A stretch of 40,889 nucleotides of DNA from Bacteroidota bacterium (GTDB taxonomy: Bacteria; Bacteroidota; Bacteroidia; Bacteroidales; VadinHA17): assembly GCA_030706785.1 (NCBI GenBank), contig JAUZNW010000011.1, forward strand, positions 1 to 40,889. The letters are read 5' to 3'. The position numbers were made by a program, and so were the translations under genes. Below are positions 15,906 to 34,484 of this stretch, one piece after another (the first letter of the stretch is position 1; the number at the start of each line of letters is the position of its first letter). The notes beneath the pieces were generated by a model. That model saw only the letters and a list, made by a program, of their open reading frames with translations. It made no database searches and was not told the origin of the DNA.

Positions 15906-17813
15906 TTAGAATATCCCGGCTGATTCCCTGACAGGTATTTCACCATGCTTTACCTTTCCTGATGTGAATGGGACTGCTATTGCTTCTGCAACGATTTCTG
16001 AAATATCTGATATTCTGGTTTTTGTGGCCGGTGTAAGCGTCTTCTTGCACAACGGGCAGACAGTAATTATACAATCAGGCTCGCATTTCGCCAGCTCCCT
16101 TGTGACATTGACCGCAATCTTTCTTCTGTCAGCACTGCTTATTTTAATATTTCCCAGGCTTCCTCCGCAACACATAGAATTTTCATCATCAAACTCAGTA
16201 GGTTCAAGCCTGGCAACATGCTTTATTACCTCTTTAGGTTCATCATAAACTCCTGAATTCCTTCCAAGTTCACATGACGTATGATAGGTGACCTTTTTAT
16301 TCAGGAAATTCATTTTGACTGAACCCGTCTCAATCAGGTTCCAGATGAATTGTGAATGGTGCAGTACTTCTACATCGAGATAATAGCTCTCCCGGAACAC
16401 CTTGTAACAGATGGGGCATGAAGTGACGAGGGTATGTGCACCGGATTTCCAGATCACCTGCGAATTATAATTGATAAGCTCCCTCGCTTCCTTATCCTGT
16501 CCGGCCAGCATCAAAGGACGGCCGCAGCATACGCCTCCATTTTCATCCATGAACGACCATTTAAGTCCTGATGCGTTCATAATATTTACCATCGACCTCT
16601 TTATTGAAGGGGTAATATGGGTCATGCAGCCCGCAAAATAAAGGACATCAGCGCTTTGTGAATTAGTTACAGGAAGAAAGTCGAATGGATTACTATAGTT
16701 CTGCCTGGCAGACTGAACTATCTGCCTGTTGCGGAGATATCCCTTCCAGGTATTTGTGTAATTAATATCAGATTCTCCCTTTCTCCTCTGGATCATCCTG
16801 ATCTTTGTGAGTTCTATGCCAACAGGACATTTCAGGTCACACCTGCCGCAAAGCAGGCAGTTATGAGCTATTTCTCCGGTTTCATCCCCATTCCTTATCG
16901 CTTTCATCAGGTAAGCTGACTGGATATGATTTATCCCGGCTGAAAAATTCAGCTGACATTGATCTATACAGATCCCGCATGATGAGCATGAATGCACCTC
17001 CACTTCCGAAAAAGTCCCTGCTTTGTCGCCAGTTTTTATACCTGAATTTCTCATAAAAATGAGGAACAGTTCCACAGGGATGTGGAAATATCTTGTCAGG
17101 GGAAGCATGAAGAAGAAAGTTCCAAGTGACAGTGAATAGAGCCACCAGAACGGGTATGCCACCTCGCGGGCAGGTAAAAATGAAGCAAGGAGTGATCCGA
17201 GGGTCCCTGTAAGAAAGCTTCCTGTCCCGTAAGCTCCGCTTGTGAGGCTTTCTGCAAGAAGACGGCTTGGGAAAACCAGCCAAAGCGCTGTCATTGCTAT
17301 CTTATCCTTAACCTTCAGGTGTGTTGTCTTCTTCATCCCTACAACCTTGGGAGTGAACCGTTTTATTATTGCAAGGATAAGTCCTGAAAGAATAAAGGCC
17401 AGAATAAGGTCCATCATGAAGGAGTATGCTACCTCAGAAAATGTCTTCCCGTAATCGGGATTGAAGAATTTAAAGAAGATCGCCTTGTAGGGTGCATTAA
17501 GATGCCTTTCTCCGAAAATATCCGCTTCAAGTGTCCCGAACAGAATGAGCAGAAACCACCCGAAAGCCAGGCTCATGTGCATGTATCCAAGGCGCGGTTT
17601 TGTTTTCAGGATCTTACGGTGAATCAGGCTTTCGAGAAATATCTCTTTAAGGCTCTGTCCAAATGCCCTCCCGAAAAAGCCCCTCTGAAGCCTGAGCTTG
17701 TCAGGTCTTGAAAGTTCCCTGAACCAGATAATGCTCCTTGTTACAGCATAGATCAGTATGAAGTAAAGACCCAGGTTAAATGGTATGACAAACGGATCAA
17801 ATTGCATATCCAT
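15906..17813 (-). CDS. Membrane-anchored heterodisulfide reductase-like protein (NarI/DsrM-like membrane domain fused to HdrD/DsrK-like 4Fe-4S + CCG domains)
   Basis: 635 aa with several N-terminal TM segments, two 4Fe-4S motifs (CSSCGICIDQC; CLLCGRCDLKCP) and two CCG modules (CMTH...CCGRP...CPIC; CELG...CCGGS...CPLC). Confidence 0.88.
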   Translation of the reverse strand: MDMQFDPFVIPFNLGLYFILIYAVTRSIIWFRELSRPDKLRLQRGFFGRAFGQSLKEIFLESLIHRKILKTKPRLGYMHMSLAFGWFLLILFGTLEADIFGERHLNAPYKAIFFKFFNPDYGKTFSEVAYSFMMDLILAFILSGLILAIIKRFTPKVVGMKKTTHLKVKDKIAMTALWLVFPSRLLAESLTSGAYGTGSFLTGTLGSLLASFLPAREVAYPFWWLYSLSLGTFFFMLPLTRYFHIPVELFLIFMRNSGIKTGDKAGTFSEVEVHSCSSCGICIDQCQLNFSAGINHIQSAYLMKAIRNGDETGEIAHNCLLCGRCDLKCPVGIELTKIRMIQRRKGESDINYTNTWKGYLRNRQIVQSARQNYSNPFDFLPVTNSQSADVLYFAGCMTHITPSIKRSMVNIMNASGLKWSFMDENGGVCCGRPLMLAGQDKEARELINYNSQVIWKSGAHTLVTSCPICYKVFRESYYLDVEVLHHSQFIWNLIETGSVKMNFLNKKVTYHTSCELGRNSGVYDEPKEVIKHVARLEPTEFDDENSMCCGGSLGNIKISSADRRKIAVNVTRELAKCEPDCIITVCPLCKKTLTPATKTRISDISEIVAEAIAVPFTSGKVKHGEIPVRESAGIF

Positions 17814-18141
17814 TCATTTTTTGAAACATTTGCTTTGCCAGGAATACGACATTCCTTGTATTTACTCCCCGGGGGCAGACAAGAGAGCATTTCCCGCAAA
17901 GCATGCATTTTTTAAGCTCGTTCCATGGCTTCTCATTCTCCCCCCTGTGAATGAGAATATTAATCTCCCTGAGACTGAACTGTGTGTAATTACCGGCAGT
18001 GCAGGTCGCGGTACATCCTCCACAGGCAATGCAGAGCTTAAAGCTTGGTTCCTTCTCGCGAATGTAATCAGCCAGGCTTCTGTCGTTTGCTTCCCAATCG
18101 ATATACCTTACCTTTGATATTGAAAATCCGAATTTATCCAT
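17797..18141 (-). CDS. HdrC-like 4Fe-4S dicluster protein
   Basis: 114 aa with CIACGGCTATC and CMLCGKCSLVCP motifs. Overlaps the start of the next gene by 17 bp. Confidence 0.85.
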   Translation of the reverse strand: MDKFGFSISKVRYIDWEANDRSLADYIREKEPSFKLCIACGGCTATCTAGNYTQFSLREINILIHRGENEKPWNELKKCMLCGKCSLVCPRGVNTRNVVFLAKQMFQKMNGYAI

Positions 18142-18142
18142 C

Positions 18143-19171
18143 TCAGGAAGTCCTAATTCTCAAATAATTTATCACCTCTGTTGCTGCCGCCCGGGCATGC
18201 GATATTGTTTCTGTAATGTTCATGGGAGCAGTGCAGGTTCCGGCATAAAATACTCCTTTCAGATTGCTGCGATTATTTGCGTAATGATGATCAGAAGGTG
18301 CAAAGAACTTGTTTTCACCTCGCACCAGACCTGCCAAGCCGGCAATTTTACTTCCCCCTTCCGACATCTCCATCCCGGCCATCAGCACAAGCATGTCAAG
18401 TTCAATTTTTAGTGGTCTGCCTGCAAGAGTATCCTCCACTTTCACAACAAGTCTGCCATCAATCTTTTCGCTAGCTTCCGAGACTTTACCCCTGATAAAG
18501 TTGATGTTCCACTTTTCCTGCGCTTCCCTGTACAATTCTTCATAATGGGCCCCTCCCATTCTCATATCCATATAAAAGCAAAATACTTTTGATTGGGGAA
18601 GCTCTTCCCTGACCTCAATTGCCTGCTTTACTGCAGTCACACAACATAATTTGGAACAATAAATATTGCCCGCCTTCTCATCTCTTGATCCAACACAGTG
18701 TACAAAACCAATTGTTTTGGGTTCTTTCCCGTCAGAGCGTCGTATTTTACCATTTCTAAACATTCCCTCAAGGTCAGCTGATGTGATTACATTGTCGTAA
18801 ATACCATAACCGTATTCCTCTTTCCTTTCACATTTGAAAAGATCAAATCCTGTGGCAAGAACTACAGCATCACATTTTATCTCTTTACCATCGTGTGTGA
18901 GAAGTGAAAAGCCATTCTTGGTCTTTTTGAATTCTTCAATGTAGGTCCCTGTATGAATGCTGATCTTTTTCAGCATCAACTTCTTTTCGAGATAGTCCAG
19001 GACTTCAGAGCTATTTCTCCTGTCGGGAAAAAGCTTGTACCAGTCATTCAGGTGTCCTCCGGTCCTGTTTTCCTTTTCCACTACACTGACAGAGAAACCT
19101 GTTTCTGAGAGCTGACCGGCAACCTCTATCCCGGCTGGACCACCGCCTATTACAACTATATGTTTGTCCAT
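18143..19171 (-). CDS. HdrA-like FAD-dependent oxidoreductase (short form)
   Basis: 342 aa with GGGPAGIEVAGQL dinucleotide-binding motif and HdrA cysteine motif HCVGSRDEKAGNIYCSKLCCVTAVKQA. Confidence 0.87.
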   Translation of the reverse strand: MDKHIVVIGGGPAGIEVAGQLSETGFSVSVVEKENRTGGHLNDWYKLFPDRRNSSEVLDYLEKKLMLKKISIHTGTYIEEFKKTKNGFSLLTHDGKEIKCDAVVLATGFDLFKCERKEEYGYGIYDNVITSADLEGMFRNGKIRRSDGKEPKTIGFVHCVGSRDEKAGNIYCSKLCCVTAVKQAIEVREELPQSKVFCFYMDMRMGGAHYEELYREAQEKWNINFIRGKVSEASEKIDGRLVVKVEDTLAGRPLKIELDMLVLMAGMEMSEGGSKIAGLAGLVRGENKFFAPSDHHYANNRSNLKGVFYAGTCTAPMNITETISHARAAATEVINYLRIRTS

Positions 19172-32123: not shown

Positions 32124-32312
32124 TAAATTTTTATAAAGAGCAGGAAACAGCTCAACTCTTACCTGGATTATATAAGGATCCTCCCAGGGAGTATTAATTA
32201 TGTAAATTTAAACTTAATCCATTTAAAATCAACGCACTTCAGATTAGAGTCAATAAATGTATCTTCAAGCCTCTTTTAGGATTGTGCTAAATATCATAAT
32301 TAACTGTCGTAC

Positions 32313-32326
32313 TTGATATAAATCAA
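32313..32326. promoter_or_regulatory. Perfect FNR/CRP-family type box TTGAT-ATAA-ATCAA
   Basis: Exact match to TTGATN4ATCAA, 5 nt upstream of the predicted -7 element of the SQR operon. Confidence 0.6.
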
Positions 32327-32330
32327 TCTC

Positions 32331-32338
32331 TACTTTTG
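32331..32338 (+). promoter_or_regulatory. Bacteroidota -7 promoter element (TACTTTTG) of the SQR-DsrC-DsrE operon
   Basis: TACTTTTG matches TAnnTTTG and lies 32 nt before the SQR start codon. Confidence 0.55.
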
Positions 32339-32340
32339 TG

Positions 32341-32358
32341 CTGTTAATTTTTTAACAG
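32341..32358. promoter_or_regulatory. Inverted repeat CTGTTAATTTTTTAACAG (Rex-like operator) in the SQR leader
   Basis: 7-bp perfect arms around TTTT; its core TGTTAAN4TTAACA (32342-32357) is identical in half-sites and spacing to 20985-21000. Confidence 0.65.
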
Positions 32359-32369
32359 ATCGGAGGATT

Positions 32370-33602
32370 ATGTATAAGCTATTAATTCTGGGTGCCGGCA
32401 CAGGTGGCACTATAATGGCAAATAAGATGCGTAAGGTATTGCACAGGAAAGAATGGCAGGTAACTATTGTTGATCAGGATAAAGCCCACTATTATCAACC
32501 TGGATTTTTGTTTATTCCATTCGGATTTGCAAAAAAATCGGGCATTGTAAAACCAAAACAAAATTTTGTTCCACCTGGAGTCGATTCTGTATATCAACAG
32601 GTGGAACTGATTGATCATGAATATAATAATGTGATCCTGGCTGATGGCAGAGTTCTTGAATATGATATTCTGATAATTGCCACTGGGGTCAAAACAAATC
32701 CGGAAGAAACACCCGGGCTTAAAGGAGAATTGTGGCATAAGGACATCTTCGATTTCTATACAATTGAAGGAGCTGAAGCTATGGCAGAATATTTTAAGGA
32801 CTGGAATGGCGGCAACCTTGTGATCGATGTTGCAGACAATCCAATTAAATGCCCTGTTGCACCTCTGGAATTTGCATTTTACGCTGATTACTTTTTTACA
32901 AGGAAAGGTATGCGTAATAAGGTGAATATCACCTTCGTAACACCTATGTCAGGAGCATTTACAAAACCAAAAGCATCGAAGGCGTTCGGATCACTCCTTG
33001 AAAGGAAGAATATCAATCTTGTCACTGATTTTTTCCTTGGAGAAGTAGATAATACAAGTAAAAAAATCCTGGATTTCGGAGGGAGGGAAGTTCCATTTGA
33101 CTGCCTTATCTCGATCCCGCTTCATTTCGGTGAACAGGTGATTTCGAAGAGTGGTCTGGGTGATGAATTCGGATTTGCAAAGGCAGATAAGTCGACACTC
33201 CAGTCACAGGTCAGAAATAATATTTTTGTAATCGGCGACGCAGGTAACTACCCTTCATCAAAAGCAGGATCGGTAGCACATTTCCAGGCTGACATTCTGG
33301 AACGGAATATCCTGGATTTCATAAATAATAAGCCTTTATCGAAATCATTCGACGGGCATTCGAACTGTTATATAGAAACCGGGTATGGCAAAGCCATCCT
33401 GATTGATTTCAATTATGTCACCGAACCCCTTATGGGATTATATCCATGGCCGGTTATTGGCCCTTTCTCTTTGTTGAGGGAGTCGCGGATTAATCACCTC
33501 GGGAAACTCGCCTTCGGTTGGATCTACTGGAATATTCTTTTAAAAGGACGGAAACTTCCGGTCACAAGTCATATGTCCATGGCAGGAAAGATCAACGATT
33601 AA
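32370..33602 (+). CDS. Sulfide:quinone oxidoreductase-like FAD-dependent oxidoreductase
   Basis: 410 aa with LGAGTGGTIMANKMRK, KCPVAPLEFAFYADYFF, FVIGDAGNYPSSKAGSVAHFQAD and HSNCYIETGYGKA. Confidence 0.88.
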   Translation: MYKLLILGAGTGGTIMANKMRKVLHRKEWQVTIVDQDKAHYYQPGFLFIPFGFAKKSGIVKPKQNFVPPGVDSVYQQVELIDHEYNNVILADGRVLEYDILIIATGVKTNPEETPGLKGELWHKDIFDFYTIEGAEAMAEYFKDWNGGNLVIDVADNPIKCPVAPLEFAFYADYFFTRKGMRNKVNITFVTPMSGAFTKPKASKAFGSLLERKNINLVTDFFLGEVDNTSKKILDFGGREVPFDCLISIPLHFGEQVISKSGLGDEFGFAKADKSTLQSQVRNNIFVIGDAGNYPSSKAGSVAHFQADILERNILDFINNKPLSKSFDGHSNCYIETGYGKAILIDFNYVTEPLMGLYPWPVIGPFSLLRESRINHLGKLAFGWIYWNILLKGRKLPVTSHMSMAGKIND

Positions 33603-33656: not shown

Positions 33657-33968
33657 ATGGCACAAAAAGTCTATGCAGGTGTAACTGTTGATGTAAATGA
33701 GGAAGGATATTTCACCAATCCTTCCCAGTGGACAAAGGAAATTGCTGTTGAAATAGCAAAACAGGAAGGTATTGTCCTTACGGAAAAGCATTTCGCAATC
33801 ATAGAATACTTACGAAACAGGTATAATAGCGGTGAAGCACTATCAATCAGGAGCATAAACCACTCCGGAGTAATTGATGTCAAAACTTTTTATCAATTGT
33901 TTCCTGGCGCTCCCTTGAAGAAAGCAACCAAAATTGGCGGAATACCAAAACCGGCCAGCTGTGTTTAA
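33657..33968 (+). CDS. DsrC/TusE-family sulfur carrier protein
   Basis: 103 aa with DsrC/TusE fold signature and C-terminus LFPGAPLKKATKIGGIPKPASCV carrying the penultimate Cys. Confidence 0.92.
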   Translation: MAQKVYAGVTVDVNEEGYFTNPSQWTKEIAVEIAKQEGIVLTEKHFAIIEYLRNRYNSGEALSIRSINHSGVIDVKTFYQLFPGAPLKKATKIGGIPKPASCV

Positions 33969-33986: not shown

Positions 33987-34484
33987 ATGGAACAAGATCA
34001 CCCGATTAAAAAAGTAAATATCATATGCGCCAAAGGTGCAATTGAAGATGTCTATGCAACCCTTGTTCTGGGCAATGGCGCTGTAATGGAAGGTATCGAA
34101 ACTAATATCTTTTTTACCTTCTTCGGACTCGATGCAATCATGAAAGGCAGAATGGATAAGCTTCATACCGGAGTGGTTGGTAATCCGGCTTTAAGATTGC
34201 CGGGAGGTTTAAGAATGCCGACCCTCCTTGGAGCAATACCCGGAATTGAGTCCTTTACCTCATGGATGATGAAGAGTGAAATGGATAAACTCGACATTCC
34301 TCCGGTAAGTGAATTTCTTGACCTTATAACCGCAGGCGGCGGGAAAATCTATGCCTGCAAGCTTGCCTGTGATATGTTCAAGGTTAAAAAAGAGGATCTC
34401 TGGGATCAGGTTTCAGGTATACTGACAGTTGGAGAATTCTATGGCCTTGCCGGAGGGGAAGCATCACAGATAATATTCACCTAA
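33987..34484 (+). CDS. DsrE/DsrF/DrsH-like (DsrE2-type) sulfurtransferase-like protein
   Basis: 165 aa with KVNIICAKGAIEDVYATLVLGNGAVMEGIETNIFFTFFGL and GGKIYACKLACDMF. Confidence 0.9.
   Translation: MEQDHPIKKVNIICAKGAIEDVYATLVLGNGAVMEGIETNIFFTFFGLDAIMKGRMDKLHTGVVGNPALRLPGGLRMPTLLGAIPGIESFTSWMMKSEMDKLDIPPVSEFLDLITAGGGKIYACKLACDMFKVKKEDLWDQVSGILTVGEFYGLAGGEASQIIFT

Follow-up and report, generated by a model that had tools for sequence, protein, structure and literature searches.

The window analyzed herein, a 40,889-nucleotide stretch of a Bacteroidota genome (designated G000; 3.65 Mb in 299 contigs), carries two operons of presumptive sulfur metabolism, one for a sulfide:quinone reductase (SQR), a DsrC-family protein and a DsrE2-like carrier on the plus strand, and one for five Hdr-like proteins on the minus strand (20959-15906), none of which reached the cut-offs set by the named equivalog models for Hdr. 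The genes and control elements considered here are as follows.

15906..17813, minus strand: membrane protein with 4Fe-4S and double CCG domains (HdrD/DsrK-like); PF02754 above cut-off, DsrK model 68 bits, below cut-off
17797..18141, minus strand: HdrC-like 4Fe-4S dicluster protein (ferredoxin-like), from profile matches
18143..19171, minus strand: short HdrA-like FAD subunit; NF040770 247 bits, below cut-off
19178..20239, minus strand: HdrB-like subunit; NF041780 134 bits, below the equivalog cut-off, PF02754 above cut-off
20252..20959, minus strand: HdrC-like subunit, first gene of the Hdr operon; NF041779 91.6 bits, below the equivalog cut-off, PF13183 above cut-off
20985..21000, unstranded: predicted Rex-type operator of the Hdr operon, TGTTAATTAATTAACA
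32331..32338, plus strand: -7 element TACTTTTG of the Bacteroidota TAnnTTTG type; TAnnTTTG precedes the site in orthologs too
32341..32358, unstranded: predicted Rex-type operator, CTGTTAATTTTTTAACAG, over the predicted transcription start of the SQR-DsrC-DsrE2 operon
32370..33602, plus strand: type III SQR; NF049943 607.9 bits, cut-off 525
33657..33968, plus strand: DsrC/TusE-family sulfur relay protein; TIGR03342 and PF04358 above cut-off, C-terminal cysteine only
33987..34484, plus strand: DsrE2-like sulfur carrier; PF13686 above cut-off, NF047629 92 bits, below cut-off

The DsrC-family protein possesses only the penultimate C-terminal cysteine and misses the second cysteine of true DsrC, and is thus TusE/RspA-like in that respect.

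The original prediction had placed the same palindrome in the leaders of both operons, and its letters and coordinates for the SQR copy were exact. The core of that copy, TGTTAATTTTTTAACA, spans 32342-32357, and the identical half-sites and 4-nt spacing recur without mismatch in the Hdr copy. The distances given for the -7 elements were likewise correct, the core beginning at the fourth base after the SQR element (a gap of 3 nt) and a single nucleotide separating the palindrome from the Hdr element TAAATTTG on the minus strand. In both operons the palindrome immediately follows the -7 element and overlaps the predicted start, a placement that, as judged relative to these predicted starts, is that of a repressor.

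Within the window, a search allowing up to two mismatches returned two matches against 2.0 expected, both of them exact. The argument that coincidence is unlikely was substantiated at the scale of the whole genome, where TGTTAA-N4-TTAACA occurred 29 times exactly and the 14 other spacings between N0 and N14 gave 5 copies in total. A general surplus of hairpin-forming inverted repeats was rejected as the cause, since the reversed control with N4 gave 2 copies. Across the genus, another 35 genomes each contained 2-59 exact palindromes, whereas the reversed control gave 0-3; genomes from other families of the order contained 0-4. Two further candidate features were discarded, namely an additional flanking element (CCTGT, TGTTT), whose enrichment was weak, and a constant distance to the -7 element throughout. 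Among the 61 exact sites of G000 and its congener G010 examined for the latter, TAnnTTTG adjoined none but those of SQR, Hdr and a cytochrome cluster (one site) in G000 and that of Hdr in G010, and the -7 geometry is therefore specific to few promoters.

Comparison of the regions upstream of orthologous operons, the check proposed with the original prediction, showed that both sites are maintained across the genus. The palindrome was retained at a score of at least 11/12 in 17 of 18 SQR promoters (only G003 lacking it), generally 8-17 nt before the ATG (64 nt in one case) and mostly right after TAnnTTTG, and in 17 of 21 Hdr promoters, where it mostly abutted TAnnTTTG. In the SQR set, the information content was approximately 1.9 bits per base for the half-sites, 1.2 for the spacer and 0.5-0.9 for the flanks. 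The SQR and Hdr operons were neighbours in six or more genomes. Among 76 SQR loci with readable upstream DNA in named Bacteroidota MAGs, a genome set partly overlapping that of the genus, 34 carried the operator as GTTAA or GTGAA at 11/12 or better within 160 nt, while the GTTAA form reached 11 in 11 of 1520 random windows from these loci; the GTGAA form was seen at some SQR promoters outside the genus in genomes having rexA (L257, L273, L279, L280, L315). Further upstream of the -7 elements lay other conserved blocks, approximately ATCATAAATATCATA for SQR (32280-32330) and approximately TATAAATACC together with AAATAGGCTTTAAG for Hdr (21010-21100), which are probably the sites of other factors. 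Since each operon has a different block, regulation is not the same at the two promoters, and each is subject to further private control.

As for the protein that binds the palindrome, the Rex operator consensus TTGTKAA-N4-TTMACAA agrees with it genome-wide in both the core and the fixed N4. The outer base was C or T about equally rather than mostly T, which counts against a Rex assignment; the published Rex sites match the palindrome, and their outer bases vary too (PMC5886521; PMC5317091). The genome of G000 encodes two Rex proteins, RexA and RexB, in addition to several CRP/FNR proteins. RexA (contig C87) matched the winged-helix N-terminal domain PF06971 with 47-49.6 bits (cut-off 27), the NAD(H)-binding Rossmann domain PF02629 with 69.5 bits (above cut-off) and NF003995 with 196 bits (cut-off 126), and aligned with Rex chains of the PDB at E ~1e-30; by these sequence matches, it is a bona fide member of the Rex family. 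We consider it highly probable that the palindrome is the operator of this NADH/NAD+-sensing repressor. The idea that one redox regulator serves both operons is well supported, and the candidate is now a specific one. RexB was rejected as the binder because its divergent promoter has TGTGA-N6-TCACA-like sites instead; its gene (L041, G000:C295) is divergent from an apparent hydrogenase operon, with such sites both between the two and at its own start.

The rexA gene was nearly universal in the genus, with 69-86% identity; G029, in which it was not found, has 2 exact palindromes. The palindrome was found at 11/12 or better in 18 of the 20 rexA loci fetched, often as two copies 17 nt apart; of the two others, L202 was cut by a contig end and L203 had no such site. 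The usual order is a divergent operon, one or two palindromes, HydC-HydB-HydA, a fusion of a hydrogenase domain with a histidine kinase, often another palindrome, two response regulators and rexA. By their best-matching families, HydC-HydB-HydA constitute an NADH-dependent (bifurcating) [FeFe]-hydrogenase, and the palindromes at these loci read like taTTGTTAAnnnnTTAACAATg, the classical Rex operator. In G000 itself, the hydC promoter bears the tandem TGTTAATAAAATAACA and TGTTCATATAATAACA, scoring 11/12 and 10/12. In G046, which belongs to another family, the palindrome is found ahead of a Hox-type hydrogenase operon with rexA behind it, and in five relatives reached via their SQR loci (G082, G083, G084, G105 and G106) rexA itself has one or two sites within about 120 nt upstream. 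The operator thus stands both at rexA and at classical Rex targets within one lineage. The kinase fusion, exemplified by L186:6020-7975 of G010 and its orthologs, joins the C-terminal domain of the [FeFe]-hydrogenase large subunit (PF02906) to HisKA and HATPase_c, lies between hydABC and the response regulators/rexA, and is possibly an H2-sensing kinase.

The hydC tandem also bears on the suggestion that, as RNA, the palindrome could form a hairpin in the 5' leader. Folding did predict the proposed 7-bp stem with a 4-nt loop at the extreme 5' end of the leader, and the 80-nt stretch folded better than its shuffled versions (z -2.4). The hydC sites, however, lie upstream of the -7 element and hence outside the transcript, the nearly invariant stem letters show rare changes in SQR leaders (TGTGAA...TTAACA) that are uncompensated on the other side, and identical letters are also found at divergent promoters and within genes. 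The hairpin can accordingly form on paper, but the evidence points to a site in DNA, and we rejected a function as RNA, which is extremely improbable.

With respect to the distribution of the Rex gene, we compared 49 further genomes, scoring rexA as present at 45% identity or more. It was found in 21 of the 23 genomes with the operator at SQR versus 9 of the 26 without (Fisher P = 8e-5), the operator thus tending to occur where rex occurs. Phylogenetic dependence remains in this comparison. The association held when the SQRs were collapsed at 90% identity (P = 0.005) or 80% (P = 0.04) and was not significant at 75% or below (P 0.06-0.14). Exceptions were seen on both sides. The Hdr site was missing despite rexA in G025, G018, G009 and G031, and the SQR site in G003, and three relatives of the same order with rexA had zero exact sites (G041, G042, G054). 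Conversely, rexA was not found in G005 (11 sites; genome 81% complete), nor was it detected in the genomes of L265 and L276, which carry the site.

Regulators of the CRP/FNR family recognize operators such as TGTGA-N6-TCACA and TTGAT-N4-ATCAA, which resemble the palindrome in being two-fold and of similar length, and a member of this family could in principle read it as TGTTA-N6-TAACA and control the sulfur operons. The genome of G000 has seven matches to CRP-type HTH domains, five of them above cut-off, and in some relatives a CRP/FNR gene adjoins SQR, a Phs/Psr-like operon or one for DsrE-Hdr paralogs, and sites of hybrid TGTGA/TGTTA type occur at these places. The first candidate was CRP_C201, since an exact palindrome lies about 130 nt upstream of its gene, which is within a multiheme-cytochrome cluster. 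Nevertheless, it was rejected as the binder because G002, G010 and G027, which are among the most site-rich genomes (31-36 sites), yielded no ortholog, so that CRP_C201 does not track the site. The CRP/FNR proteins encoded at the sulfur loci of relatives had no close match among those of G000 (26-33%). Moreover, unlike CRP/FNR operators, the palindrome here is situated at +1, the position of a repressor, and recurs at rexA and hydABC. Control by a CRP/FNR-family protein is thus considered unlikely, and Rex remains the preferred candidate.

Some features of the CRP/FNR loci may be recorded separately. The CRP_C201 cluster (L026, G000:C201:1200-12200) contains two exact palindromes along with genes for MtrC-like, DmsE-type, DUF5777 barrel, cytochrome b and ResB proteins. 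The CRP/FNR genes adjoining the sulfur operons of relatives (L136:6404-7174, L138:6557-8079, L140:5264-5941 and L144:16066-16743) encode N-terminal cysteines, and several of the palindromes near them are TGTGA/TGTTA hybrids, as if two regulators shared them.

Rex proteins are known to bind DNA at low NADH/NAD+ (PMC5317091). On this basis, a Rex dimer would sit on the starts of the SQR-DsrC-DsrE2 and Hdr operons at a low ratio and, being placed just downstream of the -7 element, would block RNA polymerase. When NADH accumulates, Rex would take it up and leave the DNA, and both sulfur operons would be expressed with the bifurcating hydrogenase and other genes of electron disposal. Binding at low NADH/NAD+ combined with an operator on the start would thereby lead to co-expression of both operons with hydABC at an excess of reductant.

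The original prediction had further taken the shared site as support for a single pathway, a step that is supported only in part. A common NADH signal for the two operons would follow from the Rex assignment, but sharing the site does not necessarily imply one pathway, as it also occurs at genes for hydrogenase, pyruvate:ferredoxin oxidoreductase, fumarase, succinyl-CoA ligase, Phs/Psr-like enzymes and cytochromes. In G010, in particular, exact copies lie ahead of the genes for pyruvate:ferredoxin oxidoreductase, class I fumarase and succinyl-CoA ligase, and of that for a Phs/Psr-like molybdoenzyme, which adjoins a CRP/FNR gene; this list fits the central-energy targets known for Rex. Derepression at high NADH would be at least as compatible with disposal of reductant through sulfur compounds as with oxidation of sulfide. 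If repression is lifted at high NADH, the sulfur genes may help to dispose of reductant, a point relevant to the direction in which the pathway runs. Rex control would also give the regulation of SQR, DsrC, DsrE2 and Hdr-like proteins in uncultured Bacteroidales a name and a signal, NADH/NAD+, and predicts their co-expression with hydrogenase.

These predictions are comparable with known Rex systems. In Thermoanaerobacterium saccharolyticum (Firmicutes), Rex sites such as TTGTTAATAAATTAACAC at adhE and TTGTTAATAAATTAACTA at the hfs hydrogenase share the palindrome (TTGTTAATAAATTAACA) and its spacing, and the predicted targets include hydrogenase, fermentation/energy genes and sulfite reductase (asrABC) (PMC5886521); hydrogenase and energy genes are found here too, whereas the C or T at the outer base and the SQR-DsrC-DsrE2 and Hdr-like targets distinguish the present case. 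In Caldithrix abyssi, a rex-hydABC operon likewise combines rex with a bifurcating [FeFe]-hydrogenase under a site with C outside (cTGTGAATCAATTCACAt; general consensus TTGTGAANNNNTTCACAA; PMC5317091), but that operator is of the GTGAA form and sulfur genes are not among the targets named in the passages considered. In Desulfovibrio, Rex controls genes of sulfate reduction (Ravcheev 2012, as cited in PMC4215793) and coordinates sulfur-compound metabolism with energy genes such as Rnf, while the sulfur genes here are those for SQR, a single-cysteine DsrC and Hdr-like proteins instead of sulfate reduction. Our literature search found no paper linking Rex to SQR in Bacteroidales. The palindrome, as read from its letters and setting, is a known kind of operator with a new set of target genes.

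Not all sites are at promoters. Exact palindromes lay inside coding sequences in 15 of 29 cases in G000, 13 of 32 in G010 and 14 of 31 in G002, or about 40-50%. Of the 13 intragenic sites of G010, 12 were kept at 12/12 in the aligned gene of G002, as compared with 1.5 expected from same-phase windows in the same genes (P ~2e-11), even though the surrounding DNA was 79-88% identical and the spacers differed in three of the 12; this analysis covers two related genomes, simple ORF calls and exact sites, and conservation of the codons GTT, TTA and ACA may itself exceed the average. The outer base was a purine at 51 of 56 intragenic sites and at 69 of 96 isolated TTAACA words. The host genes are unrelated (GH92, GH28, GH106, GH32, PorZ, MutS2, Mfd, aconitase-family, response regulator and others), and one site, in a response-regulator gene, is common to G000, G010 and G002.

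We take the intragenic sites to be real, and ordinary promoter repression does not explain them, which counts against the palindrome being a Rex operator and nothing else; they may be bound as roadblocks by Rex or by a second protein. A search of the literature on the Rex regulon in Bacteroidetes and on intragenic Rex sites gave nothing usable. Tentatively, the Rex-type palindrome might also be selectively maintained within genes throughout the genomes of this genus, with Rex or a protein sharing its sites acting there on genes or the chromosome, although we lean against this extension. It is less likely still, if somewhat more conceivable than control by CRP/FNR, that the palindrome chiefly serves a second, chromosome-organizing or roadblock-type DNA-binding protein, the Rex operators being a subset or look-alikes. 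The frequency of intragenic sites in three genomes, their conservation from G010 to G002, their unrelated host genes and the location of some intergenic sites beside terminator-like repeats would be in line with such a protein. On the other hand, the counts range from 2 to 59 within the genus, the protein is hypothetical, the palindromes in the rexA, hydABC, SQR and Hdr promoters resemble Rex operators in behaviour, and Rex could also occupy the intragenic sites. Their constraint raises a separate question on transcription or chromosome organization in Bacteroidota. Examples of intragenic sites are found at L033:3021, L218:1682 and L237:1734.
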